From: an uncultured Clostridia bacterium
GTDB taxonomy: Bacteria > Bacillota > Clostridia > TANB77 > CAG-508
DNA: 39,752 nt
Direction: 5' to 3'
NCBI GenBank assembly: GCA_947631025.1
Contig: CANRKA010000008.1
Span: forward strand, 1 to 39,752
In this document: positions 6,064-30,867 of the stretch, piece by piece
How the letters are laid out: every line of letters begins with the position of its first letter
Numbering within the stretch: position 1 is the stretch's first letter
Program-made: the position numbers and the translations under genes
Notes under the pieces: model-generated
Told to the model about the DNA's origin: nothing
Databases searched by the model: none
The model's input: only the letters and a program-made list of their open reading frames with translations

Positions 6064-6150
6064 AATATAATGAATTTTGAATAAGAAAATTTGAATTTTC
6101 AAAAGATTCTTAATATAAAAAATGTTTAAGATAAAAGGATTGTGAAACTT

Positions 6151-9100
6151 ATGAAAAAAACTTTATTTGAATTAACTAACCCTCAAAAAAGTATCTGGCT
6201 TACAGAGCAATATTACAAAGGTACTACTGCCAATAACTTGTGCGGTACTGTTAATATAAATGAAAAAATAGATTTTAAAGTTTTAGAAAACGCTTTAAAT
6301 TTGGTTATAAAAAATAACTCCAATTTTTTAATTAATTTTAAGCAAAAAAATGGGGAGTTGTTTCAATATTTAACAGATTACAAATATTTTAATATTGAAA
6401 CTATAAATGTAAAAAGTAGCGATGATGTTAAAGCTATTGAAAATAGTCTTAATAATAAGGTTTTTAATATAGAAAATTCATATTTATTTGAATTTAAAAT
6501 TTTTAAATTTCCTAATTCTACTGGAGGATTTGTTTTTTGCTGCCATCATTTATTAGGTGACTCTTGGAGTTTAGGTTTAATCTGCAAAGAAGCAATTCGT
6601 GCTTATAATTCTTTGTGCCAGGGAACTGAAAATGAACTTCCTACCTCAAACTACATAGATTTTTGTAAAACGGAAAAAAATTATTTACAAAGTTTGAAAT
6701 TTCAAAAAGATAAGGAATATTGGGATTTAGTATTTAGCACTATTCCAGAAGTGGCAAGTATTCCTTCTAAAAATAAAAATACTTATGAAAATATTTCATG
6801 CAAAGCAAATAGAAATACTTATGAAATTTCAAAAGATATTATGGAAAAAATAAATGAATTTTGTAAAAGTAATAAAATTTCGGTTTTTAATTTTATTACT
6901 TCTATTTACTCGTTATATATAAGCAGAACTTGCAATTTAAAAGATTTTGTTATTGGAACTCCTATATTAAATAGGTCTAATTTTGCTGAGAAAAATACTT
7001 TGGGAATGTTTGTTAGTACTGCTGCTTTACGTGTTAATTTAGAAAATAAAAATACTTTTTTAGATTTAGCATCTAATATTGCACAAAATAGTATGAGTAT
7101 GTTAAGACATCAAAAATACCCATATGAATATATTTTAAAAGACCTACGCCAAAGGATTCCAAATTTACCTAATTTATATAATATTTTAATTTCTTATCAA
7201 ATAACAAAAACTACAACAGATACAATAAAACATACTACAAATTGGGCATTTAATGGAAATTGTGCAGATGAATTACAAATACATATTTTAGATTTAAATG
7301 ATACTGGAAACTTAAATATTTCTTACGACTATAAAACACAAAAATATACTTCAAATGAAATTGAAGATATTCATAAACGTATTATACATATAATAAATCA
7401 AATTTTAAATAATAATTCTATTTTATTAAATGATATTGAAATTGTTACTGAGGAAGAAAAAAAGGAATTATTATACGATTTTAATAATACAAAATTTGAA
7501 TATGATAAGACAAAAACTATAGCTGAACTATTTGAAGAGCAAGTAAGAAAAACACCAAATAATGTTGCAATTGTGTTTGAGGGAAAACAATTAACCTATA
7601 AAGAATTAAATGAAAAGGCAAATCAGCTTGCAAATTATTTAAGAAAAAATAATATAAAAAATAATACCATTGTTGGAATTGTAATAAATAGGTCTTTAGA
7701 AATGATGGTTTCTATTTTAGCTGTTTTAAAATCTGGTGGAGCCTATATTCCTATAGACCCTGACTATCCTGATGAAAGAATTTCATATATGTTAGAAGAT
7801 AGTAAAACCGCTATTATTTTAACAACAAAAGAAACAAATAAAAATTTTAACATTACTACAATATATGTTAATTTAGATAATTTAAATATATATTCTGGAA
7901 ATGAAAATAATTTGAAAAAAATTTCTAACCCAACAGATTTATCTTATTTAATATACACATCTGGGTCTACAGGAAAACCTAAAGGCGTAATGTTAACACA
8001 ACAAAGTTTCTTAAATTTATATTATGGAGTTGCAGAAAAAGTAAAATATTTAAATGATGGTTTATATCATTCAATTGTATCTATAACAACCATTTCATTC
8101 GATATTTTTGCTTTTGAAAGTATTATATCTTTAACTAAAGGCTTAAAGGTATTTATAACTAATGCAATGGAACAAAAAATAACGTCGAAATTAGAAGAAT
8201 TAATTTCAAAAAATAATATTGAAATTATACAAACAACACCTTCTATAATGAATTTTCACATAAATTCATTATTAAATAAAAATAGCTTTAATTCTTTAAA
8301 ATATATTGTTTTAGCGGGTGAACAGCTTCCTAAATCTTTAGTAGATAAAATTAAAAATACTATAGACGATATAACTATATACAATGGTTATGGTCCTTCT
8401 GAAACTACAATTTTTTCTACAATAACAGATGTTACAAATGCTGATAGTATTACAATTGGAAAACCAATTGCAAATACTAAAATATATATATTAGATGAAA
8501 CTAAAAATTTGCTTCCTAAATATTGTATTGGAGAATTATATATAGCAGGAGATGGTGTTGGAAAGGGTTACTTATTTAAGGAAGATTTAACATCTCAAAA
8601 ATTTATAAAAAATAAATTTTTGAATAATTCTATAATGTACGAAGTTGGAGATTTAGGTTTTTGGAATGATAATGGAACAGTAGAATGCAAAGGAAGAATA
8701 GACCATCAAATTAAACTTAGAGGACTTAGAATAGAATTAGGCGAAATAGAAGAATGTATTGAAAGCTTTTCTAAAAATAATTCTATTGAATGTGCTGTTA
8801 TTGTGAAAAAAGTTGATGATAAAGAAAAACTAATAGCATTTATTAATTCTAATAAAGAAATAAATTTACCTAATTTGAAAAAGTCTTTAGTAAATAAGCT
8901 ACCTAATTATATGATTCCAAACGAATTTGTATTTTTAAATAGCTTGCCTCACACTCCAAATGGTAAAATTGATAGAAAAACTTTGCAAACAATAAATATA
9001 GATTTAAAACAAAAAAACATTGTACTTCCAACTACAAATACAGAAAAAGAAATTGTAAAAATAATTTCAGCAATCTCTAAAAACAAAGAAATAAGTATTG

Positions 9101-12100
9101 AAGATGACTTTTATTCAATAGGCTTAGACTCTTTAGATATTATAAAATTATCTTCAGTAATAATTAAGCAATTTAATGTTGAAATACCAGTTTCTAAATT
9201 ATACTCTTTGTCAAATATTAGACAAATTGCAGACTATGTTGATAATAACTCAAATAATCTAAAACAGGCAATAAAAAAGGCGTTAGATAGCAAATATTAT
9301 CCACTTTCTAATGCTCAAAAAAGAATTTACTATGCAAGTAAAATGTCTACAAATTCTTTAGTTTATAATATAAGTGGTGGATTATTAGTAGATTCTTTAT
9401 TAAATGAAAACAAAGTAAGTAAGATTTTTAATACTATAATACAAAAGCATAGTGCTTTTAGAACGTGTTTTAAAATTATAGAAGATGAGCCAAAACAAGT
9501 TGTATTAAAAGATGCAAAAATTAATATAAAATCTTTTAATACCAAAAACCAAAATGTTGAAGAATTAATAAATAATTTCCCAAAACAATTTGACTTTGAA
9601 AATGCTCCGCTTCTAAGAGTAGAATTGTATTATATAAATAATAAACAAACTCTATTATTAATAGATTCACACCATATTATTTTAGATGGAAGTTCTTTAA
9701 ATATATTAATAAATGAATTTTGCAAACTATATAATAATGAGGCTGTAGAAGAAGAAAAAGTAGATTATAAAGATTTTACAATATGGGAAAATGAATTTGT
9801 AAATAGTAAAGAAATCAAAAAACTTGAGGAAAATTGGCTTAATATTTTTAAAAATGTTGATATACCAGTTATAAACTTACCTTATGATTATCCTGTATCT
9901 CAGGTAAAAACATTTAATGGTAATACTATAAAATCAAAAATACCACAATCTACATTTAAAAAGCTTGAAATACTTGCTAAAAATAATCATGTTTCTCCAT
10001 ATGTACTATTTTTAAGTGCATTTTATGCAATGCTTTATAGATATACAGGTCAAGAGACAATAATTGTTGGAAGCCCTATCTCTGGAAGGTTTGACAGTTC
10101 TTTAGAAAATACAATAGGTATGTTTGTTAATAATATTCCTTTAGCTATTAATATAAATTCTGAAAGTTCTTTTATAGAATTTATGAATGTAATAAAAGAT
10201 AAAGTTATAACTGCTCTTGATAATGGATCCTATCCTTATGATATGCTAACAAAAGCCTTAAATTTAAAATCAAATACTAATTTATTTGATGTAATGTTTA
10301 CATATCAAAGCGAAAATAATGAATTACCTAAAATAGAAAATAAAGATATAGATATTATTTATGCAAATACAAAAACTGCTAAATATAATATATCTTTAGA
10401 AATTATACCTAATACAAATACAATTAATTTAGAATATAATACAGATTTATTTAAAGAAGAAACAGCAAAAGAATTTTTAAAACATTATTTGGTGGTTTTA
10501 GAAAATATAATTACTAATTCAGAAGCTAAACTATATAATTTAAACCTACTAACCAATGAAGAAAAAAATAAAATATTATATGAATTTAATGATACAAAAT
10601 TAGAATATCCTACAAATAAGACTGTTTCTATGCTTTTTGAAGAAAAGGCAAAACAAATACCAAACAAAACAGCACTTGTTTTTAAAAATAAAAGCTTAAC
10701 ATTTAAGCAATTAGATGAAAAATCTAATGAACTTGCCAATTATTTAAGAAGCATAAATATTGAAAAAAATGATATTGTTGGAATTATGTTAGAGCGTTCT
10801 TTAGAATTAATTATTAGTATTCTAGCTTCTTTAAAATGCGGATGTTGTTATATACCAATAGACCCAAACTTTCCAAATGAAAGAATTAACTATATGTTAA
10901 AAAATAGTAATTCTAAAATATTATTAACATCTGAGAAAACCTATAATAAAACAAGTTTTAATAATAAATTAGTTGTTAATTTAGATAATTTAAATGTTTA
11001 TAATGGAAATAGCACTAAGCTAGAAAATATAAATACACCAAACGACAACTCTTATATTATTTATACTTCTGGCTCTACTGGTACCCCTAAGGGAGTTGTT
11101 TTAAAACATAAATCATTAACTAATTTAGCTTATTATTTAAATGAAAATTTAGGATTTTTTAAAGAAAAGGAAAATACTATTGTTTCTATAACTACTGCTA
11201 GTTTTGACATTTTCCTATTTGAAACAATTATGTGTCTTCAAGCAGGAGTTAAAGTTGTTGTTGCAACAGAAGACGAGCAAAGAATACCTAGTAAATTAAA
11301 CAGCCTAATACAAAATAATAACGCAACTGCTATACAAATGACACCTTCAAGAATGCAATTTTTTATAGAAAATATAGGTGATATGCCTAATTTAAAAGAT
11401 TTAAAATATGTAACTCTTGCAGGAGAACCTTTAAGCAAAGATTTACTTAAAGAACTTTTAAAAATTGGTATAAAAAAGGTTTATAATGGTTATGGGCCTT
11501 CCGAAACAACAGTATTTTCTACTTTTACAGATGTAACAAATCAAGATATAGTAACAATTGGAAAACCTTTAGCAAACACACAAATTTATATTTTAGATAA
11601 AAATATGTCACCATGCCCTATTGGTGTTCCTGGTGAGCTATATATAGCTGGAGATGGTGTAGGAAATGGATATTTAAATAATATAGAATTAACACAAAAA
11701 AGTTTTATTCCAAATCCTTTTATACCAAATTCTACTATGTATAAGGTAGGAGATTTGTGTAAATGGCTCAAAAATGGAGAAATTCTATGTTTAGGTAGAG
11801 TTGATAACCAAATAAAAATTAGAGGTTTGAGAATTGAACTTGAAGAAATAGAAAACAGAATTTTAAGTTTTCCTTTTATAAAAAAATGTGTTGTTGTAAA
11901 GAAAACAATGAATACAAGAGAATTTATTTGTGCATATTACATTGCTGATAAAAGAATTAAAGTTTCTGACTTAAGAGCACATTTAGCAAAAAATTTGCCA
12001 GATTATATGATACCAAGTTACTTTACTGCTTTAAGTGATTTTCCATATACACCAAATGGAAAAATAGATAAAAAATCTTTACCAATGCCTGAATTAGGTA

Positions 12101-13074
12101 AAAACAAAACAAATAATTTTGTTGCGCCAAAAACAGACTTAGAAATTAAGCTTGCAAACATCTTCGAAAATATATTATCTACTAGTCCTATTGGTGTAAC
12201 CGATAACTTCTTCGAATTGGGAGGAGACTCTATACTTGCAATGAGGCTAAATATAGAACTTTTAAAAATATCTAGTAAAATTACATATGCAGATATCTTT
12301 GAAAATCCAACTATTTCCGGCTTAATTACACTTATAGAATCTACAAAAAACATAGAAACACATTTAAATAATATAGATAATTCAAAATATGAAAAATTAT
12401 TGAATAAAAATGTTGAGTTTCCAAAGGTTATAAAGAAAACTCCATGTAAAAATTTATTACTAACAGGAGCAACTGGATTTTTAGGAATTCATGTGCTAGA
12501 CTCTTTTTTAAGAAATGATTTAGGAAATGTTTTTTGTATAGTTAGAGATGAACCAGGTATTAGTGCTGAAACTAAATTACTTAATAAATTAAATTATTAT
12601 TTTGGAGAAAAATATAACAATTTAATTAATAAAAAAATATTTATAATAAATGGCGATATTTCTAAAGATAATTTAGGCTTAAGCCAAAGAATGTATTATA
12701 ATTTAGGAATAACAATAAATGCTGTTATAAACTGTGCTGCAAAAGTAGACCACTTTGGAAAATATGAAACATTTTATAATATAAATGTAAAGGGTGTACA
12801 AAATTTAATAGATTTTTGTAATATTTATAAAAAGAAATTTTATCAAGTTTCTACTTTAAGTGTTTCTGGTAATTCTTTTGTAGATGACTATGCTACAGAG
12901 CAGAGCTTTACAGAAGATAAAGAATTTAGAGAAAATAATTTTTACATAAATCAAACTATAAATAACGTATATATTAAAACTAAATTTGAAGCAGAAAATC
13001 TTGTTTTAGATAATATTTTAAATGGATTAGATGGCTATATTTTAAGAGTTCGGAAATTTAATGCCAAGATTTAA
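6151..13074 (+). CDS. Two-module NRPS, C-A-T-C-A-T-reductase (zero frame, ends early at a +1 frameshift)
   Basis: The 2307-aa zero-frame product contains, in order: condensation domain 1 (HHLLGDS, His132/133, Asp137); adenylation domain 1 (about 440-945; YTSGSTGKPKG near 600, YGPSETT); carrier domain 1 (GLDSL, Ser near 993); condensation domain 2 (HHIILDG near 1173); adenylation domain 2 (about 1480-1975; YTSGSTGTPKG); carrier domain 2 (LGGDSI, Ser near 2026); and the start of a terminal thioester reductase (GATGFLG near 2104, VSTLSV, catalytic Y-x-x-x-K near 2274). Reading the pockets against GrsA by hand gives DIFQVAGIFK and DIFQTAGVFK, hydrophobic and nearly alike. An N-terminal C domain suggests an N-acyl cap. 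The reductase would release a dipeptide aldehyde by NADPH reduction. Frame is lost at 13051, and the zero frame ends 7 codons after the CGG. ATG 6151 is preferred over GTG 6142 for spacing from AAAGGA. Restored length is 2473 aa. Confidence 0.93.
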   Translation: MKKTLFELTNPQKSIWLTEQYYKGTTANNLCGTVNINEKIDFKVLENALNLVIKNNSNFLINFKQKNGELFQYLTDYKYFNIETINVKSSDDVKAIENSLNNKVFNIENSYLFEFKIFKFPNSTGGFVFCCHHLLGDSWSLGLICKEAIRAYNSLCQGTENELPTSNYIDFCKTEKNYLQSLKFQKDKEYWDLVFSTIPEVASIPSKNKNTYENISCKANRNTYEISKDIMEKINEFCKSNKISVFNFITSIYSLYISRTCNLKDFVIGTPILNRSNFAEKNTLGMFVSTAALRVNLENKNTFLDLASNIAQNSMSMLRHQKYPYEYILKDLRQRIPNLPNLYNILISYQITKTTTDTIKHTTNWAFNGNCADELQIHILDLNDTGNLNISYDYKTQKYTSNEIEDIHKRIIHIINQILNNNSILLNDIEIVTEEEKKELLYDFNNTKFEYDKTKTIAELFEEQVRKTPNNVAIVFEGKQLTYKELNEKANQLANYLRKNNIKNNTIVGIVINRSLEMMVSILAVLKSGGAYIPIDPDYPDERISYMLEDSKTAIILTTKETNKNFNITTIYVNLDNLNIYSGNENNLKKISNPTDLSYLIYTSGSTGKPKGVMLTQQSFLNLYYGVAEKVKYLNDGLYHSIVSITTISFDIFAFESIISLTKGLKVFITNAMEQKITSKLEELISKNNIEIIQTTPSIMNFHINSLLNKNSFNSLKYIVLAGEQLPKSLVDKIKNTIDDITIYNGYGPSETTIFSTITDVTNADSITIGKPIANTKIYILDETKNLLPKYCIGELYIAGDGVGKGYLFKEDLTSQKFIKNKFLNNSIMYEVGDLGFWNDNGTVECKGRIDHQIKLRGLRIELGEIEECIESFSKNNSIECAVIVKKVDDKEKLIAFINSNKEINLPNLKKSLVNKLPNYMIPNEFVFLNSLPHTPNGKIDRKTLQTINIDLKQKNIVLPTTNTEKEIVKIISAISKNKEISIEDDFYSIGLDSLDIIKLSSVIIKQFNVEIPVSKLYSLSNIRQIADYVDNNSNNLKQAIKKALDSKYYPLSNAQKRIYYASKMSTNSLVYNISGGLLVDSLLNENKVSKIFNTIIQKHSAFRTCFKIIEDEPKQVVLKDAKINIKSFNTKNQNVEELINNFPKQFDFENAPLLRVELYYINNKQTLLLIDSHHIILDGSSLNILINEFCKLYNNEAVEEEKVDYKDFTIWENEFVNSKEIKKLEENWLNIFKNVDIPVINLPYDYPVSQVKTFNGNTIKSKIPQSTFKKLEILAKNNHVSPYVLFLSAFYAMLYRYTGQETIIVGSPISGRFDSSLENTIGMFVNNIPLAININSESSFIEFMNVIKDKVITALDNGSYPYDMLTKALNLKSNTNLFDVMFTYQSENNELPKIENKDIDIIYANTKTAKYNISLEIIPNTNTINLEYNTDLFKEETAKEFLKHYLVVLENIITNSEAKLYNLNLLTNEEKNKILYEFNDTKLEYPTNKTVSMLFEEKAKQIPNKTALVFKNKSLTFKQLDEKSNELANYLRSINIEKNDIVGIMLERSLELIISILASLKCGCCYIPIDPNFPNERINYMLKNSNSKILLTSEKTYNKTSFNNKLVVNLDNLNVYNGNSTKLENINTPNDNSYIIYTSGSTGTPKGVVLKHKSLTNLAYYLNENLGFFKEKENTIVSITTASFDIFLFETIMCLQAGVKVVVATEDEQRIPSKLNSLIQNNNATAIQMTPSRMQFFIENIGDMPNLKDLKYVTLAGEPLSKDLLKELLKIGIKKVYNGYGPSETTVFSTFTDVTNQDIVTIGKPLANTQIYILDKNMSPCPIGVPGELYIAGDGVGNGYLNNIELTQKSFIPNPFIPNSTMYKVGDLCKWLKNGEILCLGRVDNQIKIRGLRIELEEIENRILSFPFIKKCVVVKKTMNTREFICAYYIADKRIKVSDLRAHLAKNLPDYMIPSYFTALSDFPYTPNGKIDKKSLPMPELGKNKTNNFVAPKTDLEIKLANIFENILSTSPIGVTDNFFELGGDSILAMRLNIELLKISSKITYADIFENPTISGLITLIESTKNIETHLNNIDNSKYEKLLNKNVEFPKVIKKTPCKNLLLTGATGFLGIHVLDSFLRNDLGNVFCIVRDEPGISAETKLLNKLNYYFGEKYNNLINKKIFIINGDISKDNLGLSQRMYYNLGITINAVINCAAKVDHFGKYETFYNINVKGVQNLIDFCNIYKKKFYQVSTLSVSGNSFVDDYATEQSFTEDKEFRENNFYINQTINNVYIKTKFEAENLVLDNILNGLDGYILRVRKFNAKI
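13048..13054 (+). other. +1 frameshift site GTT-C-GGA in the NRPS reductase domain
   Basis: The zero frame reads GTT CGG AAA and ends in RKFNAKI-stop. Skipping the C at 13051 gives GTT GGA AAT TTA ATG, that is V-G-N-L-M, the conserved segment of thioester reductases (typically RVGNLM), and the frame then stays open to 13573. CGG at 13051-13053 is the only in-frame CGG of this 7-kb gene. Either one base is inserted (mutation or assembly error) or the site is recoded. Confidence 0.85.
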
Positions 13075-22265: not shown

Positions 22266-23216
22266 TTAATCTAACATATCTTTTTTCTTTAGCCATAATG
22301 TTACTACTAATGTTAATATTGTTGAAATTCCAAGCATTATCCAAAAACCTTTTACATTATGTTGAAATGGCAATTCTACATTCATTCCCCAAAAGCTTGA
22401 TACCATTGTTGGTATTGCAAGTACTATCGTTATTGAAGTTAAGAATTTCATTACACCATTTAAGTTATTTGAAATTATTGAAGCATATGCATCCATTGTC
22501 CCATTTAAAATGTCACTATATATTTTTCCCATTTCAATTGCTTGCTTATTTTCTATAATAGCGTCTTCTAGTATATCTTCATCATCTTCATATAATTTTA
22601 TAAATTTTCCTCTTAATGTTCTTTCCATTACTACTTCATTTGCCTTTATAGATGTTGTAAAGTACACCAAACTCTTCTCTAAACTTAACATTTTTAAAAG
22701 TTCTCTATTTTTCATAGAATGTTTTAGTGTGCTTTCTGCTATTTCTGTTTCTTTATTTATTCTTTTTAAGTATGCTAAGTATTCTGAGGCATTTTCTAGC
22801 ATTATTTGAAATAGAAATCTACTTTTCATATATGTTGCAAAATTTTTAATTTTTTGTTTTGCAAATTTTTCTGTTATAACATACTTTTGTATTGAAACAG
22901 TAATTACATAGTCATCTCTTACAAATATTATTCCAAGTGGCATTGTGTTGTATATATACGTTTCGTTTTGTTTTTCTATTACTGGCACATCTATTACAAA
23001 AAGAATTGTTCCATCATCTTCTTCTATTTCTATTCTTGGTTTTTCCTCATCGTCTAATGAATCTCTAATAAAGTCTTCATTTATTTTTAATTCACTGCAT
23101 ATACTTTTAATTTCTTCGTCACTTGGAGAAATCATATTTATCCATGCACCTTTTTTTATTTCTTTTAGTTCTTCAAATTTATTTGTTTGTATGTCTGTAT
23201 TATATATATTTATCAT
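22266..23216 (-). CDS. CorA-family divalent cation (Mg2+) transporter
   Basis: The 316-aa protein has a large cytoplasmic N-terminal domain with long helices and two C-terminal membrane helices. The signature GMN lies between them (FWGMNVELPF), as in CorA pores. The N-terminus begins with INIYNTDIQ and a region rich in Asp/Glu that fits the metal-sensing domain. It probably forms a pentameric channel for Mg2+ or related ions. A GGGAGG site precedes the start. A short hairpin separates it from the cohesin gene upstream on the same strand. Confidence 0.92.
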   Translation of the reverse strand: MINIYNTDIQTNKFEELKEIKKGAWINMISPSDEEIKSICSELKINEDFIRDSLDDEEKPRIEIEEDDGTILFVIDVPVIEKQNETYIYNTMPLGIIFVRDDYVITVSIQKYVITEKFAKQKIKNFATYMKSRFLFQIMLENASEYLAYLKRINKETEIAESTLKHSMKNRELLKMLSLEKSLVYFTTSIKANEVVMERTLRGKFIKLYEDDEDILEDAIIENKQAIEMGKIYSDILNGTMDAYASIISNNLNGVMKFLTSITIVLAIPTMVSSFWGMNVELPFQHNVKGFWIMLGISTILTLVVTLWLKKKDMLD

Positions 23217-23236: not shown

Positions 23237-23257
23237 GGGTCGCATACTATGCGACCC
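23237..23257. repeat. Palindromic hairpin element, 9-bp stem
   Basis: GGGTCGCAT (23237-23245) pairs with ATGCGACCC (23249-23257) around a 3-base loop. It is GC-rich in very AT-rich surroundings. On the minus strand only ATTTT follows, so terminator activity would be weak. It resembles the palindrome at 31280-31302 and may be one of a dispersed family. Confidence 0.6.
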
Positions 23258-23272
23258 TATATTGCTATAATT

Positions 23273-24073
23273 TTATATCTTTTTGTATTTTTCATGTAAT
23301 TTATAAGATATTACTCCAAATATAGAGATTGCAAATATTGATATTAATATTATTGCATTTGTTACATCTCCTGTTTTTGGTATAGATTTATCTGAATTAC
23401 TTTGTCCTATTACTTGTGATTTACTTGTTGATGTTGTTGGAGTTGATTTTTGTGATGATTGTTCACTATTAGAGCTATTAGCACTATTAGCACTATTAGC
23501 GCTATTGCTACTATTACCATTATTACTATTACTGGGAGTTACTGCTAAACTTCCTGTTGAACCGCTATTATTATCTCCTTGAACTGGCTCTGATATTATA
23601 TTAATTGTTTTATCTATATTATTAATTTCTACTTCATCATCTGCTAATGGATTTAGTGTAATTTTTTCAAATGCATCATAGCCTTTTAATGTAATATTTG
23701 TAGAGTCTTCTGTAACGTTTTCTTTAACTTTAAATGTTATACTGTATAAATTTGCTTCTTTTGGATATTCTCTTGATGTTTCTTTCCAAGATAATGCAAC
23801 ATTTGCTCCGCTTCCGTTATTTATATAATTTTCATTTAATATTGAACTTGACTCTATTTCTAATATATCACTATTATATTCAACACCTGTTACTAATCCT
23901 ATTATTCCAGAATCACTACTTGCAGAAATTGTTAATGTAAATGTTTCTCCTTCTTTTACATTATTTTTGCTAATTGTAGCTGTAACATTTCCATTTGATG
24001 CAGCATTAGATGTTATATTTAACGTTATAAGTGTAATTATAGTAATTAATAATGTAGCTAATATTTTTCTCAT
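23273..24073 (-). CDS. Cell-wall-anchored cohesin-domain protein
   Basis: The 266-aa protein has a signal peptide (about 1-25, ending SNAAS), one cohesin-like domain (about 27-165), a Ser/Asn-rich linker with short repeats (NSANSANSANSS) and a sorting-type C-terminus: IPKTGD, a membrane helix and a basic tail. Cohesin marks are VKEGETFTLTISA, GLVTGVEYNSDILE and ANLYSITFKVKENVTEDSTNITL. Cohesins bind dockerins in cellulosome-like complexes. The start at 24073 follows AGGAGG; the ORF track adds about 29 codons. It lies directly downstream of a dockerin protein gene in the same direction, so the two products probably bind each other on the cell surface. No sortase gene is in the window. Confidence 0.85.
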   Translation of the reverse strand: MRKILATLLITIITLITLNITSNAASNGNVTATISKNNVKEGETFTLTISASSDSGIIGLVTGVEYNSDILEIESSSILNENYINNGSGANVALSWKETSREYPKEANLYSITFKVKENVTEDSTNITLKGYDAFEKITLNPLADDEVEINNIDKTINIISEPVQGDNNSGSTGSLAVTPSNSNNGNSSNSANSANSANSSNSEQSSQKSTPTTSTSKSQVIGQSNSDKSIPKTGDVTNAIILISIFAISIFGVISYKLHEKYKKI

Positions 24074-24208
24074 TTTTATTCCTCCTATGTATTTTAAGCT
24101 ATACCATATTATTAAATATATTAAAGTTTTATGGTATTTAAGACCTTTATAAATCGACATTATTTTATAATATATATTATATCATTAATTATTTTTCCGT
24201 CAACATTT

Positions 24209-27200
24209 TTATAAACTTTCTATAATCCCTAATCTATAATTGTTTATTTTATATATGTCTTTTAAATTTATTGTTCTATCTTCTGTTACATCTGCAGCTA
24301 ACCAATTTGCAACAGTTAATTTTAAAATATTAAGTCTGTAGTTATTTAATGCAAATATATCTTTTAAATCTATTTTTCCGTCACTGTTTACATCACCTTT
24401 TAAAACTATTACATATTGTACATCTCCATCTGTTACAATATTATCTCCAGTTTTTAAATTTCCAGTCACATTTTGTGTTAAATCTGAATTTTTTATTTCA
24501 ACATTTGTTCCTTCAATTTTTTCTAGTAATGTTTCTGCTTCCATTGGTTCTGAAAGTATTAAATAATCTACATTATTTTCTGTTTTTACAACTAAGCTTT
24601 CATCTAATCCTATTGTTCTACCATCTACTATATATTCGTTTGAACATGCTGTTGTTATATGTCCTTTTGTATCTGTTGTTTTTACGTGTAAATAATATGT
24701 ATCTAATTCTTGAGCAATATATTGAGCTTTTAATGCTGTAGAATTTCCTCCATCTTGTGTATATGCACTTGGCTCATCTTTAGATGTTGTCCATGCATAT
24801 TCTATTTTGCTTATTGCTACATTAGTTACTATTATATTATCTTCTATTAAAGCTCGACCTTCTTTGTTTAACTTGTATGTTCCACCATTTTTTTCAAATA
24901 TAATTGATGCATCTTCGTCTTTAATTTTGACTATATTTGTTACTTCTATAGAATCTGTTACAGTATTTCCTGCCTTATCTGTTACTGATACTGTATACCA
25001 TCCATTTTCTGTTACTATACATGCACAATTTCCATCTTCATCTAATGTAACTTGTGTTCCATTTATTTCTACTTTTTCTATTCCAGAAACTGTATCTACT
25101 GCATTAAATGTTATTACACTAGAAACATCATTATTAGCAGTTTGTGTTAAATTAGTTATTTTTGGTAACTCTTTATCTATATTTGTTATTGATACATTTT
25201 GAGATGTTGATGTATTTCCTAAAGAATCCTGTGTTTTTATTTGTATATTGCTTGTATTTTCACTATATGTTTTTGTATTACTTGTTTCCCATGAGCTTCC
25301 ATTATCATAACTATATTTTGTTACATCTGCATACTCGTCTGTAGCATAAACAGTTAATGTTACATCATTATTTGTCCAATTATTTTCAGATTTTTCTATA
25401 TTTGTAATTACTGGTCCTTTATTATCTATAACTACATTATCGTATAATTGATTTACAAGCGTTGAATTTGCATTATTTAAAGCAACATCTTTTATTGTAG
25501 CTTTTACATATACTCTTTGTTTTCCATCATTATCTGCTAAAACAGTTATTGAATTTATATTTCCATTCGTACTTGAATTATCAATTATAGTTCCATTTGT
25601 TACAGTTATATTACCTAAACCTAATACATTAGCTGCAATACCTCTGTTTGGAACATTTGTCCATTTATCGGAATTATCTGTTAAGTTAAAATTATATGTT
25701 ATTGTATTGTTTTTTGTTAATCCTGAAGGGTCTGAAGTTATTGTTAATTCTGGTGCAGTTGTATCTGCATAAATATATGTTAATTCTTGTGTTTTTTCTG
25801 CAGTTGTATTTCCAGCTTTATCTTCAAATGCTCCTTCTAAACAATGTATAGTAAGTAGTCCATTTTCATTTTCCATAACCGTTACATTATATTTAGTACT
25901 AGTATTCCAAGAATCTTCATGACTTTTACCCAAATAACTATATACTACATCAGGTGATTCATTAAAATATCTATCCATTTGTCCTAATAAATTTACAGAT
26001 TCGCTAAAAGCAACAGTAAAGTCTAAAGTCGAACCTTGTCCATAAATTCCGTCTTGTGCATTTTCAGCTTTACTTATGCTTGTTATTACAGGAGCTGTTG
26101 TGTCAATTATTATATTTTCTAATGTAGTTAATTTAGTTGTAATTTTTTCAAGGTTGCTACTAAGTTGACTAGAATAATCTTCAACCTTCGCTTTAAATTC
26201 GTTAATAACACTATTATAATCAGATATTTTATTATATTTTTCTTCTTCTTCTCTTAACTCGTTAGTATATTCTTGTATTTTTCCTTGTTGATTATTTATT
26301 TCTCCACTTAATCTCGTAATCTCTTCATCTAATTCGGTAATTTCTTTTTGAACTTTTTCTGCATCTTTAGTTGCCTTTTGAATTTTTTCTTCTAATTCTT
26401 GTCTCGAAGGACTTCCTGTATCACTATTTAGACTTTCGTTTAATCTAGCAAGTTCTTCATCAAGCCTCTTTTTAGCGTCCTCTTTTTCAGCTTTCAATCT
26501 TTCTTTTTCTTCTTTTGATTTTTCATTATTTTCTTTTTCTGATTTAGCAGTATTTAACTTTTCTTCTAATGTATCAATATATTCATATTCATCTTCTAGA
26601 GCTTTATTGGTGTTTTCAATTACAGTTCTAATTTCTCCTTTTAATTCATCTATTAAAGAATTCATAACACTTGCATTTTGACTTGTCTCAAAACTATCTG
26701 CACTACTACAAAAACTTTTAACCTCATTTATATGGTCTATTATTTTATCTACACTAAATGCTTGTTCTCTACCACTTGCATCTGTATAACTATATGATTT
26801 ATTAGTTCCTATAGCAGTTCCTACACTATTATTATATGTACTTTCTATTTCTTTGGATATATTTTGAATATTTGTTATTTCTTCTACTCCTGGATATACA
26901 TATTCATCCCTTAAAGCATGACCTACATTATCATATACAATTCCAGCAGGTACAGTGATTTTCTTTATTTTTCCATTTAATCCATTTTCTATTTCATATT
27001 CATATACTACTGTACTTCCACTTACACTTCTTACTTTTGCTTGTTTTGTAACTGATGCACTTCCATTTATAATTTCTAAATTAATTTTTCCAGAATCAGC
27101 ATCTAATGTTCCTTTACTACTATTTGAATAAACATTATCATTATAATTTACAGTAACAACAACTTTACATCCTGCTTTTAAGTATGTAATACCATCAATT

Positions 27201-28183
27201 TCTCTTCCATTTTCAGTAGTTACACTAGAAATACTTGTTACTTTAGGTGTATATTCTGTTGAAATGCTTGCACCAGTACCTTCTCCAGTAAATATATCTT
27301 TATTTCCTGCAATATCACATACATTTTTTATTGTAAATTTTGGTATTCCATTATCTCCTTTTACTATTTTGTATGTAATTGTTATAGTATTAGCTCCATA
27401 GCTTACATTAAAATTTCCTTTAGGAGCATAATCACCAATTGTCATACTAATATCTATATTATTATTAGAAGCATTTGCAATTTTATTATCTGTAATACCA
27501 TATATATTTTCACTAAATGTAAATGTACCTGTTATAGTTGTTCCGTCATTTGATATAGTAGATGTTGCAGTTGGTCTTGTTCCATCTGCTATAATTGTTC
27601 TTGAAGTTGTATATTGTAATCCATTTGTTGGCAATCCCATTTCTATTGAATTATTTCCGTTGTCTGTTACAGTACCAGATAGAGCTATTACTTGTAATTC
27701 TCCCATATCACCTTGTGCAATTTTATATGTAAATTTAATTGTACTTCCATCAACTGTTCCGCTTACTTGTTTTTCTCCTCCATTACCAAATTTAATAATT
27801 AATTTTGAATTTGAGCATGATTGTATTATTTGGTCAAATTGTGCAGTTATTTCAACAGTTTCTCCAATACCATAATATTCTCTGTAATTTGCAATACTAG
27901 ATTCAATTCCCAAATCTGTGTTAACCCTTGCTGTTAAGTTTCCTTGCTGTATTGTTACAGAGTTTGGGTTTAGTGTTTTTGTTGTTGGTAATTTACTTAT
28001 TGTTTTAAACCATGTATTATCCTTATCTTCTTTCTGTGCTTTCTCTACACTTTCTAAATTTGCAATAGAGCCATGATTTTTGTTTGTACTGTTTAGCATT
28101 ATTAATGCCACTGCACTACACAAAATTACAGCTACTACCCCTATTAAAATAATTCTTAATTTTTTTGATACTGTACCTTTCAT
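24209..28183 (-). CDS. Large secreted, multidomain protein with C-terminal dockerin
   Basis: The 1324-aa protein has an N-terminal membrane/signal segment (about 9-31), several beta-sandwich, Ig-like domains (about 80-460), a long charged coiled coil (about 490-700, rich in E and K), more Ig-like domains beginning with IDTTAPVITSISKAE, DTTAPELTITSD and NKGPVITNIEKSE, and a C-terminal type I dockerin (about 1263-1324). The dockerin has the two Ca-binding repeats GDVNSDGKIDLKDIFALNNY and ADVTEDRTINLKDIYKINNY. No catalytic domain is visible, so it looks like an adhesin or structural surface protein rather than a glycosidase. Strong GAGAGGAAG site before ATG 28183. The cohesin gene follows 135 bp downstream. 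Confidence 0.9.
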   Translation of the reverse strand: MKGTVSKKLRIILIGVVAVILCSAVALIMLNSTNKNHGSIANLESVEKAQKEDKDNTWFKTISKLPTTKTLNPNSVTIQQGNLTARVNTDLGIESSIANYREYYGIGETVEITAQFDQIIQSCSNSKLIIKFGNGGEKQVSGTVDGSTIKFTYKIAQGDMGELQVIALSGTVTDNGNNSIEMGLPTNGLQYTTSRTIIADGTRPTATSTISNDGTTITGTFTFSENIYGITDNKIANASNNNIDISMTIGDYAPKGNFNVSYGANTITITYKIVKGDNGIPKFTIKNVCDIAGNKDIFTGEGTGASISTEYTPKVTSISSVTTENGREIDGITYLKAGCKVVVTVNYNDNVYSNSSKGTLDADSGKINLEIINGSASVTKQAKVRSVSGSTVVYEYEIENGLNGKIKKITVPAGIVYDNVGHALRDEYVYPGVEEITNIQNISKEIESTYNNSVGTAIGTNKSYSYTDASGREQAFSVDKIIDHINEVKSFCSSADSFETSQNASVMNSLIDELKGEIRTVIENTNKALEDEYEYIDTLEEKLNTAKSEKENNEKSKEEKERLKAEKEDAKKRLDEELARLNESLNSDTGSPSRQELEEKIQKATKDAEKVQKEITELDEEITRLSGEINNQQGKIQEYTNELREEEEKYNKISDYNSVINEFKAKVEDYSSQLSSNLEKITTKLTTLENIIIDTTAPVITSISKAENAQDGIYGQGSTLDFTVAFSESVNLLGQMDRYFNESPDVVYSYLGKSHEDSWNTSTKYNVTVMENENGLLTIHCLEGAFEDKAGNTTAEKTQELTYIYADTTAPELTITSDPSGLTKNNTITYNFNLTDNSDKWTNVPNRGIAANVLGLGNITVTNGTIIDNSSTNGNINSITVLADNDGKQRVYVKATIKDVALNNANSTLVNQLYDNVVIDNKGPVITNIEKSENNWTNNDVTLTVYATDEYADVTKYSYDNGSSWETSNTKTYSENTSNIQIKTQDSLGNTSTSQNVSITNIDKELPKITNLTQTANNDVSSVITFNAVDTVSGIEKVEINGTQVTLDEDGNCACIVTENGWYTVSVTDKAGNTVTDSIEVTNIVKIKDEDASIIFEKNGGTYKLNKEGRALIEDNIIVTNVAISKIEYAWTTSKDEPSAYTQDGGNSTALKAQYIAQELDTYYLHVKTTDTKGHITTACSNEYIVDGRTIGLDESLVVKTENNVDYLILSEPMEAETLLEKIEGTNVEIKNSDLTQNVTGNLKTGDNIVTDGDVQYVIVLKGDVNSDGKIDLKDIFALNNYRLNILKLTVANWLAADVTEDRTINLKDIYKINNYRLGIIESL

Positions 28184-28392: not shown

Positions 28393-28475
28393 AAATGTTC
28401 CTTTTAAATGCTTGATGTCCGTAAGTTTAGCATTGTATAAAGGAACAAATCTCGCTTCGCGAGACCTTTTTTTGT
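28393..28475 (+). ncRNA. Candidate small structured RNA ending in a terminator
   Basis: TATAAT at 28381-28386 predicts a plus-strand start near 28393, although the -35 region is weak. The RNA would begin with a hairpin: outer stem TGTTCCTTT/AAAGGAACA, inner stem AATGCT/AGCATT, and a 16-base loop. It is followed at once by TCTCGC-TTC-GCGAGA and CC-T7, a good rho-independent terminator. No ORF of note lies inside. On the minus strand the first hairpin is itself followed by T7 and could end a transcript entering from the HTH-repeat gene. I could not match it to a known riboswitch. Confidence 0.35.
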
Positions 28476-28671: not shown

Positions 28672-30813
28672 TTATCTAGTTTTTTCTTCTATTGATTGTA
28701 AATTTCTAAACTTATCGCATATTCTACATATATATGCTTTACTTTCTTGTTTCTTTTTTGCATTAATTTCTACATTAGAATCATTATTCATAACATTTAT
28801 ACTATCTCTTATATGGTCTATCATTGTTACTATTTTATCGCATCTTTCTATTGCAGCCTTTTGAATTATATAATTTTCTGATTGCATTTTAACATAAGTT
28901 TTTGTCAAATCTTCTTTTAAAGCTTTTATTATATAATTGGCTTCTTCAATATAATCTCTTTGGCTTTTTCTTTTAGTATCTACTAATATTTCGTTTTGTT
29001 TATATGCTATACTTGCTTTAAATTCTTTTACTAAATTTTTACTATTATTTGAACTTGTATTTACAATGTTTTGTTGATGTTTTTGTGTTTGCATAAATTG
29101 AGTTTTATTTTTAATTTTAGATTTTTCTTTTTGTTCTATATTATCATTTTTACTTTTCACTTCATATTCTTCTTTTTTATAAGATTGAATCTCTTCTTCT
29201 TTTTCTTCTTTTTCTTCTTTTTCTTTTTGTTCATTTTCATACTGTTTAAATAATTTTGAATCAAAATTCCAATTTAATATTTCATCATAAAATCCAAAAT
29301 CAAAAATATTAGATTTTTTATTTCTTACTCTTTCCATTATTTTATTTAATGTTTGTATCTGCTTTTTTTCTAAATTCACATTTTCTTTTGCTTCTTTTAA
29401 AAATTTTTTTGCTTCCTTTAAATTTTTTGATTTTTCACATACTGCTAATAATAAAATTGTTCTTTTATATTCAGATATTTCCTTAAATAATTTAATCTTT
29501 TCAATTAAATCTCTTTCTTCTTTATTATAATATAGTATTGTTTTTACAGTATTTATAAATTTATTTTCTAATTCTTTTGATTTCTCATTATTTGTTTCTT
29601 TTATTTCCATTTTTTTTATCTGTGATTGTATCAGTTCATTATTTTTATATCTTTTTCCTATTTCTTCTACTTTATCATAATTTCCTTCTTTTATTGCTAT
29701 TGTTATCATCTGTGACTGTATCGGTGCTTCTTCTTCAAATCTACTTCCTATTTCCTTTGCTTTATTATAATCTCCCTCTTTTATTGCTATTGTTATCATC
29801 TGTGATTGTATCTGTGCATACTCTTCAAATCTACTTCCTATTTTCTTTGCTTTATCGTAATCTCCTTCTCTTATTGCTATTGTTACCATTTGTGATTGTA
29901 TCGGTGCTTCTTTTTCAAATCTACTTCCTATTTTCTTTGCTTTATCATAATCTCCTTCTTTTATTGCTATTGTTACCATTTGTGATTGCATCTTTGCATG
30001 CTTTTCAAATCTACTTCCTATTTGCTTTGCTTTATCATAATCCCTTTCTTTTATTGCTATTGTTATCATTTGTGATTGTATCGATGCATACTCTTTAAAT
30101 CTACTTCCTATTTGCTTTGCTTTATCATAATCCCCTTCTTTTATTGCTATTGTTACCATTTGTGATTGTATCAGTTCATCTTCTTCAAATCTACTCCCTA
30201 TTTCCTTTGCTTTATCATAATCCCCTTCTTTTATTGCTATTGTTATCATCTGTGATTGTATCGGTGCATACTCTTCAAATCTACTTCCTATTTGCTTTGC
30301 TTTATCGTAATTCCCTTCTTTTATTGCTATTGTTACCATTTGTGATTGTATCGGTGCACACTCTTTAAATCTACTTCCTATTTCTTTTGCTTTATCATAT
30401 TTTTTCTCTCTTATTGCTATTGTTATCATCTGTGATTGTATTTTTGCATCTTCTTCAAATCTACTCCCTATATCTTTTGCTTCTGCATAAAGTTTTTTTA
30501 AAATTAGTATTTTAATTTTTTGACCTTGAATAACGCAATCATTAGGATATTTTGCTGTTAATTTATATGCTTCTTCTAGTTTATGTAGTCTAGTTAATTC
30601 TTTTATTTGGTTACTTACTTCTATTTTCTCTTTATTTTCGTTATTCATATCATTCTTAGCGTTATTTTCATTATTTAATTCTAAATTCAATTGTTTTTTC
30701 CAATTATATAATGTTGCAATACTAATTCCAGTTTCTATATTTATTTCTTTTATTTTTTCTCCTTTTTTTATTCTATCTTGAATTTCAGTTTTTATTTTCA
30801 ATGGATAACTCAT
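28672..30813 (-). CDS. HTH protein with ten tandem 30-residue helical repeats
   Basis: I do not recognise this 713-aa protein as a named family. Residues about 1-45 hold a helix-turn-helix of the transposase/homeodomain-like sort (ETGISIATLYNWKKQL). After a short linker come ten 30-residue repeats, consensus KAKEIGSRFEEYAPIQSQMI plus TIAIKEGDYD. Each can form a two-helix hairpin, as in TPR or PPR solenoids, but shorter than the usual 34-36. Then follow a helical region, a very acidic/basic coiled coil (KEKEEKEEKEEE), a predicted helical C-terminal domain and a CRICDKF motif with a single C-x-x-C pair. The start at 30813 follows AAGGAGG. No signal peptide or membrane segment, so it is cytoplasmic. 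It could be a DNA-bound adaptor using the solenoid to hold a partner. Confidence 0.8.
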   Translation of the reverse strand: MSYPLKIKTEIQDRIKKGEKIKEINIETGISIATLYNWKKQLNLELNNENNAKNDMNNENKEKIEVSNQIKELTRLHKLEEAYKLTAKYPNDCVIQGQKIKILILKKLYAEAKDIGSRFEEDAKIQSQMITIAIREKKYDKAKEIGSRFKECAPIQSQMVTIAIKEGNYDKAKQIGSRFEEYAPIQSQMITIAIKEGDYDKAKEIGSRFEEDELIQSQMVTIAIKEGDYDKAKQIGSRFKEYASIQSQMITIAIKERDYDKAKQIGSRFEKHAKMQSQMVTIAIKEGDYDKAKKIGSRFEKEAPIQSQMVTIAIREGDYDKAKKIGSRFEEYAQIQSQMITIAIKEGDYNKAKEIGSRFEEEAPIQSQMITIAIKEGNYDKVEEIGKRYKNNELIQSQIKKMEIKETNNEKSKELENKFINTVKTILYYNKEERDLIEKIKLFKEISEYKRTILLLAVCEKSKNLKEAKKFLKEAKENVNLEKKQIQTLNKIMERVRNKKSNIFDFGFYDEILNWNFDSKLFKQYENEQKEKEEKEEKEEEIQSYKKEEYEVKSKNDNIEQKEKSKIKNKTQFMQTQKHQQNIVNTSSNNSKNLVKEFKASIAYKQNEILVDTKRKSQRDYIEEANYIIKALKEDLTKTYVKMQSENYIIQKAAIERCDKIVTMIDHIRDSINVMNNDSNVEINAKKKQESKAYICRICDKFRNLQSIEEKTR
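29584..30483 (-). repeat. Ten tandem 90-bp coding repeats
   Basis: Ten units of exactly 90 bp encode the 30-residue motif. Most units differ at only a few codons, with variation focused on two or three positions after GSRF and the residue before IQSQM. Such similarity points to recent duplication or gene conversion and to copy-number variation between strains. The unit length is a multiple of three, so changes keep the frame. Confidence 0.93.
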
Positions 30814-30838
30814 ATAGTGCCTCCTTTTTATTGTGTAC

Positions 30839-30867
30839 ATATTATCATATTTGTGTGTTTATGTCAA
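30839..30867 (-). promoter_or_regulatory. Promoter of the HTH-repeat gene
   Basis: On the minus strand a perfect TTGACA (30867-30862), a 17-bp spacer and TAATAT (30844-30839) preceded by TGA, an extended -10. The leader is only about 20 nt. Confidence 0.8.

Follow-up and report, generated by a model that had tools for sequence, protein, structure and literature searches.

The window analysed here is a stretch of 39,752 nucleotides, contig 8 of the 1.21-Mb draft genome (94% complete) of a small-genome gut bacterium. Two adjacent genes on its minus strand form the subject of this study: a gene for a 1324-aa dockerin-bearing stalk protein (28183-24209) is followed by a gene for a 266-aa single-cohesin anchor protein (24073-23273), and both open reading frames are present at these coordinates. 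The mechanical ORF start of the cohesin gene lies at 24160, and an ATG with a preceding AGGAGG at 24073 gives the 266-aa product. Just past the dockerin stop codon and ahead of the cohesin gene there is a promoter-like TTGACG-16-TATAAT on the same strand (24176-24203), which agrees with the consensus at 11 of 12 positions but is a consensus match only, in a region that is overall not enriched for such sites relative to shuffled sequences. Terminator scoring picked out one minus-strand hairpin upstream of the dockerin gene (28447-28467) and another 3' of the cohesin gene (23237-23257); the latter is a near-perfect palindrome, GGGTCGCATAGTATGCGACCC, in the gap that separates the cohesin gene from the gene at 22266-23216, the next one along. 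Because terminator-like hairpins flank the pair and a promoter-like site separates its members, the pair appears to be a self-contained unit within which separate transcription of the anchor gene could occur.

Two other genes of the window deserve mention. The plus-strand gene at 6142-13074 encodes a 2310-aa two-module NRPS (C-A-T-C-A-T-reductase), whose closest NCBIfam model is the aureusimine synthetase AusA, below the cut-off; its product is likely a dipeptide aldehyde or pyrazinone. The minus-strand gene at 28672-30840 encodes a 722-aa protein with a transposase-like helix-turn-helix start and about ten TPR-like repeats of 30 residues (90-bp units at 29596-30482, 87% match), and the near identity of these repeats suggests a recent expansion.

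The 266-aa protein consists of a signal peptide, one cohesin, a Ser/Asn-rich spacer and an IPKTG sorting signal; the cohesin and the IPKTG-type anchor had been proposed in the preliminary description. The cohesin domain (23642-23986, minus strand) matches PF00963 with 30.9 bits, above the cut-off of 24.1; with the family profile the domain extends to 23597. A search of PDB sequences with the window cohesin gave no match, and we therefore compared folds: the AlphaFold2 model matches solved cohesins, with the non-cellulosomal Clostridium perfringens structures 2vo8 and 2jh2 as best hits (Foldseek E ~1e-8). Had the protein failed to score as a cohesin, the earlier proposal would have fallen; it both scores and models as one. 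The IPKTG sortase motif (23369-23383, minus strand) is followed by a hydrophobic stretch and a basic tail reaching 23276. With a single cohesin, this sortase signal and five sortases in the genome, all encoded elsewhere than at this locus, the protein has the features of a ScaE-type anchoring scaffoldin.

The 1324-aa protein is composed of a signal segment, Ig-like regions, a coiled coil, more Ig-like repeats, an X-module-like domain and a dockerin, all encoded on the minus strand, and it carries no wall anchor of its own. A hydrophobicity scan places the N-terminal signal or membrane segment at 28082-28183. The N-terminal Ig-like (SbsA/Big-like) region (approximately 26864-28006) was delimited from its sequence and from homologous stretches in relatives, and the C-terminal Ig-like repeats (approximately 24614-26041) from stalk homologues and weak DUF7743 and OmpL47-like matches. 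Between them lies a clear coiled coil (residues ~500-705, approximately 26069-26686) with SMC/Rad50/Filament-type matches. Searches of Pfam, NCBIfam and PDB sequences found no catalytic domain anywhere in the protein and no CBM or cellulose-binding module in the stalk. The composition first described for the stalk, Ig-like domains and a coiled coil without a catalytic domain, thus stands for the last two elements, whereas its Ig-like similarity is weak, the DUF7743 and OmpL47-like matches being below cut-off.

The C-terminal end of the stalk protein is better defined. An X-module-like domain of ~70 residues (24401-24610), beta-rich and modelled mostly with pLDDT >90, aligns with the pre-dockerin modules of relatives. 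The adjoining type I dockerin (24236-24400) matches PF00404 at residues 1262-1316 with 31.3 bits against a cut-off of 22.9, so that both profiles named for checking the pair, Cohesin and Dockerin_1, exceed their curated cut-offs; against PDB dockerins it reaches E 3.5e-4. As proposed earlier, the dockerin has two repeats. These EF-hand-like repeats, both with LKDI...NNYRL, are identical at 14 of 23 positions, and the second calcium-binding loop is degenerate (DVTEDRTINLKD). Similar repeats are typical of dual-binding dockerins.

Profiles built from the family and run over the whole genome recovered four clear dockerins, that is, three in addition to the one in the window, together with four clear cohesins and one weak cohesin match. 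The four cohesins sit in four different single-cohesin proteins, none of them a multi-cohesin scaffoldin. Dockerins are carried by the stalk protein, an autolysin and two Coh-Doc linkers encoded on contig 17, and a degenerate dockerin is present on a giant VWA-like protein; no plant-wall glycosidase was found on these dockerin proteins, the giant one having been scanned in part. The sole dockerin enzyme of the genome is a peptidoglycan glucosaminidase containing SH3, whose catalytic part resembles bacterial autolysin glucosaminidases (6fxo, E 1e-12). These counts led us to reject the view that the genome encodes a cellulosome. The pair might instead be what remains of one after loss of its enzymes, as the occurrence of cohesin and dockerin domains with no attached plant-wall glycosidase could suggest, but the same counts speak against such a remnant; across the family, moreover, single cohesins go with adhesin, peptidase or autolysin cargo, the scanned cargo has no plant-wall glycosidase domain, and the genes are intact in many genera. 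We regard descent from a cellulosome as extremely improbable.

The autolysin is encoded on contig 11 of the same genome (L010, 2268-5570, plus strand), where a glucosaminidase-SH3-X-Doc gene is followed by a gene for a membrane-anchored protein. This downstream protein of 502 aa has a weak partial cohesin match in the window genome, on which we did not accept it as a cohesin here, and a clear cohesin in relatives. The combination of an autolysin with a membrane-anchored cohesin protein recurs in Clostridia and Bacilli MAGs at many loci (L153-L232), and our literature search found no paper joining cohesin, dockerin, autolysin and glucosaminidase.

Recurrence of the gene pair was assessed in 59 genomes (the window genome and 58 relatives), with 60 further regions fetched and scanned with the profiles built here. 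Dockerins were present in 42 and cohesins in 35 of the 59 genomes. Among the relatives, the gene immediately 5' on the same strand encodes a dockerin protein for 33 of 67 cohesin-only proteins, these 33 coming from 25 genomes; by our rough estimate, chance would produce such adjacency in well under 1% of cases at about four dockerins per 1300 genes. The preliminary description had identified the pair correctly, but its picture of the arrangement has to be corrected: it is not isolated, being found in many genera of the family, and the CttA/ScaE system discussed below means that it is not unprecedented either.

The position of the dockerin within its protein follows the gene order. Of 53 proteins whose dockerin gene lies 5' of the cohesin gene, 51 have a C-terminal dockerin (one has it at the N-terminus and one in the middle); of 15 whose gene lies 3', 7 have an N-terminal dockerin, or 6 of 9 if only cohesins without a 5' partner are counted. 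The end that encodes the dockerin tends to lie on the side of the cohesin gene (Fisher p ~5e-5 for 7/15 and ~1e-5 for 6/9, uncorrected for relatedness and drawn from draft genomes). This facing orientation, and a pairing conserved by dockerin class, weigh against a reading in which the cohesin captures dockerin proteins of other bacteria and the cell releases the window stalk instead of retaining it. The stalk's lack of its own anchor fits such release, and several related cohesins have no adjacent dockerin gene; taken together, we consider foreign capture very unlikely. A different arrangement is seen in G022 (contig 3; L134, 1063-15115, minus strand), where three large paralogues in a row on one strand each have an N-terminal cohesin and an internal dockerin, and these paralogues are possibly self-assembling.

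Cohesin and adjacent dockerin vary together. In a set of 21 non-autolysin pairs, cohesin distances correlate with dockerin distances (Mantel r 0.38, p 0.0005), and the dockerins paired with the best matches of the window cohesin mostly bear the signature of the window dockerin, NxYRLG. Most loci in this comparison were picked by cohesin similarity, some by stalk similarity and none by dockerin. In a tree built from 47 paired cohesins, one label change suffices for the 16 with YRL-type neighbours (shuffled mean 13.5; 0 of 500 shuffles as low), and two suffice for those with autolysin-type neighbours; the YRL label was set after the sequences had been seen, the YRL branch is poorly supported (31), and one non-YRL pair is placed among the YRL cohesins. 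Because the window genome and that of one relative (G015) each hold more than one dockerin/cohesin class, the pattern does not merely follow species descent.

The displayed parts behave differently from the coupling parts. Relatives of the window cohesin occur in 163 of 292 family genomes and relatives of the stalk in only 29 of 292, and then only of parts of it. The 16 YRL pairs allow 120 comparisons, of which 119 showed similar X-Doc ends (last 140 residues) and 37 showed similar stalks. The YRL stalks contain LRR, BspA-type LRR, Big_3/GLUG, Big_12 and NPCBM+F5/8C domains; scans of eleven of them recognised no enzyme domain, long stretches of the NPCBM proteins being without any domain match. 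Other dockerin classes carry papain-like peptidase and lectin-like, transglutaminase-like, fn3, Ig and LRR proteins. Since the cohesin tree sorts by dockerin class, and the plug is conserved while the stalk is not, the comparison supports cognate pairing with interchangeable cargo. Co-inherited pairs would give matched trees even without binding, and the replacement of stalks argues against simple co-inheritance.

These family data also bear on the question of whether the two neighbours are each other's main partners. The window cohesin might mainly take other dockerin proteins, and the window dockerin other cohesins, their adjacency being incidental: besides this pair the genome encodes three cohesins and three dockerins, the cohesin gene has a promoter-like site of its own, and Limousia is predicted to use one sortase-anchored cohesin for many dockerins (PMC12997984). 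However, the window cohesin and the anchor cohesin of contig 17 occupy separate regions of the tree, and the dockerins beside them belong to different classes; every other dockerin of the genome has a cohesin or weakly cohesin-like gene in its own cluster. A preference of the dockerin for distant cohesins, which had been named as grounds for abandoning the proposal, is likewise at odds with a cohesin clade tied to the adjacent dockerin class. We judge such sharing of partners to be unlikely.

To model the pair we made use of the fact that both window genes share one frame: the DNA was read through the intervening stops to yield a tethered X-Doc/linker/cohesin chain for AlphaFold2, with alignment rows restricted to the window and related-locus sequences. 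The X-Doc was modelled mostly with pLDDT >90 and the cohesin at ~80-94 over most of its length; the pTM was 0.52, and the relative placement of the two halves is uncertain. A tethered autolysin-class pair, modelled likewise, reached a pTM of 0.76, which is compatible with, and no proof of, a docked complex.

Together these results lead us to propose that the two genes probably encode a minimal cell-surface display unit with a predicted non-covalent plug-and-socket coupling. The 266-aa cohesin protein, the socket, would be fixed to the wall by sortase, and the anchorless 1324-aa protein would be secreted. Its C-terminal X-module/dockerin, the plug, is expected to bind the neighbour's cohesin non-covalently and so to hold the stalk at the surface, from which the Ig-like and coiled-coil part would project as an adhesin or spacer. 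Within the family, plug and socket would be passed on together, with one displayed stalk giving way to another, which suggests that couplings of the cellulosome kind serve here to present adhesin-like proteins and not enzymes for digesting plants. The suggestion made from the first inspection, an enzyme-free stalk held to the wall by non-covalent coupling, therefore appears to be the best reading of the locus, its adhesin-like aspect being suggested by domain types.

Contig 17 of the same genome encodes a longer series. Four consecutive minus-strand genes (L009, 3886-10662, and L233, 79-13788) specify a 4569-aa giant protein, a 323-aa Coh-X-Doc protein, a 1609-aa Coh-Flg_new-X-Doc protein and a 236-aa Coh-LPYAG anchor, so that three X-Docs face three cohesins in series. 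The giant protein has a VWA-like start, SpaA-like and Flg_new repeats (VWA and SpaA assigned by eye) and, near its end, a degenerate X-Doc whose dockerin has only a marginal hhalign score. The smaller three genes occur in the same order on contig 9 of G007 (L111, L234), after a gene for a 4476-aa giant protein. Head-to-tail coupling of the contig 17 products could give a non-covalent fibre with a VWA-like tip. More broadly, it is quite possible, if short of probable, that in this family of genome-reduced gut Clostridia the cohesin-dockerin couple is a general cargo-swapping display device, ranging from two-part stalks as in the window to multi-part fibres in which a wall-anchored cohesin carries a head-to-tail stack made of a Coh-repeat-X-Doc shaft, a Coh-X-Doc adaptor and a giant VWA-like/SpaA-repeat tip (contig 17 here, contig 9 in G007); such fibres would in effect be a non-covalent counterpart of sortase pili.

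To our knowledge, cohesin-dockerin pairs have been studied almost entirely as cellulosome parts. What appears to be new here is their occurrence outside cellulosomes across a small-genome family, together with the fibre-like operons and the linked inheritance of plug and socket in combination with cargo exchange. If our reading is true, uncultured gut bacteria with genomes of ~1-2 Mb commonly possess a repertoire of plugs with matching sockets that serve adhesins, proteases and autolysins, and could swap surface proteins without re-evolving an anchor. Engineering, and tests of how pair specificity evolves, would also gain a large natural supply of orthogonal pair candidates.

Among systems already described, several share parts of this arrangement. 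The non-cellulosomal modules of Clostridium perfringens provide the closest solved folds (2vo8, 2jh2) and are likewise used outside cellulosomes, but they couple secreted glycoside hydrolases to one another and include no pair of wall anchor and stalk. The 'scaffoldin-containing' non-cellulolytic microbes resemble the window genome in having single-cohesin membrane-anchored proteins and dockerins on non-cellulolytic partners; in the part of that work available to us, isolated species are presented, and neither a conserved adjacent pair nor cargo exchange is described (PMC11557425). The mucinolysome anchor cSca5 of Limousia, also a gut Firmicute, is a sortase-anchored cohesin for wall attachment and is encoded by a very highly expressed gene, but it anchors multi-cohesin scaffoldins and mucin-degrading glycosidases, and the window pair has neither (PMC12997984).

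The closest known system and the direct precedent is CttA/ScaE. In Ruminococcus flavefaciens, ScaE has a single cohesin and is anchored through LPXTG; CttA, from the same sca cluster, uses a dockerin at its C-terminus to bind ScaE (PMC2930009). An X-module beside the dockerin, as in CttA and the related R. champanellensis complex, strengthens the bond under force (PMC7456326). As in CttA/ScaE, considered together with ScaB-ScaE and the R. champanellensis X-Doc:Coh complex, a single-cohesin anchor of the sortase type and a protein with a C-terminal dockerin are encoded together in the window, and as in CttA an X-module-dockerin C-terminus is found on an enzyme-free protein beside the anchor gene. 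The differences concern what is anchored. ScaE, unlike the window anchor, also anchors a true cellulosome via ScaB; CttA binds cellulose, but the window stalk is made up solely of Ig-like and coiled-coil parts; and the window dockerin scores as type I, in a genome that, in contrast to R. flavefaciens, is without a cellulosome.
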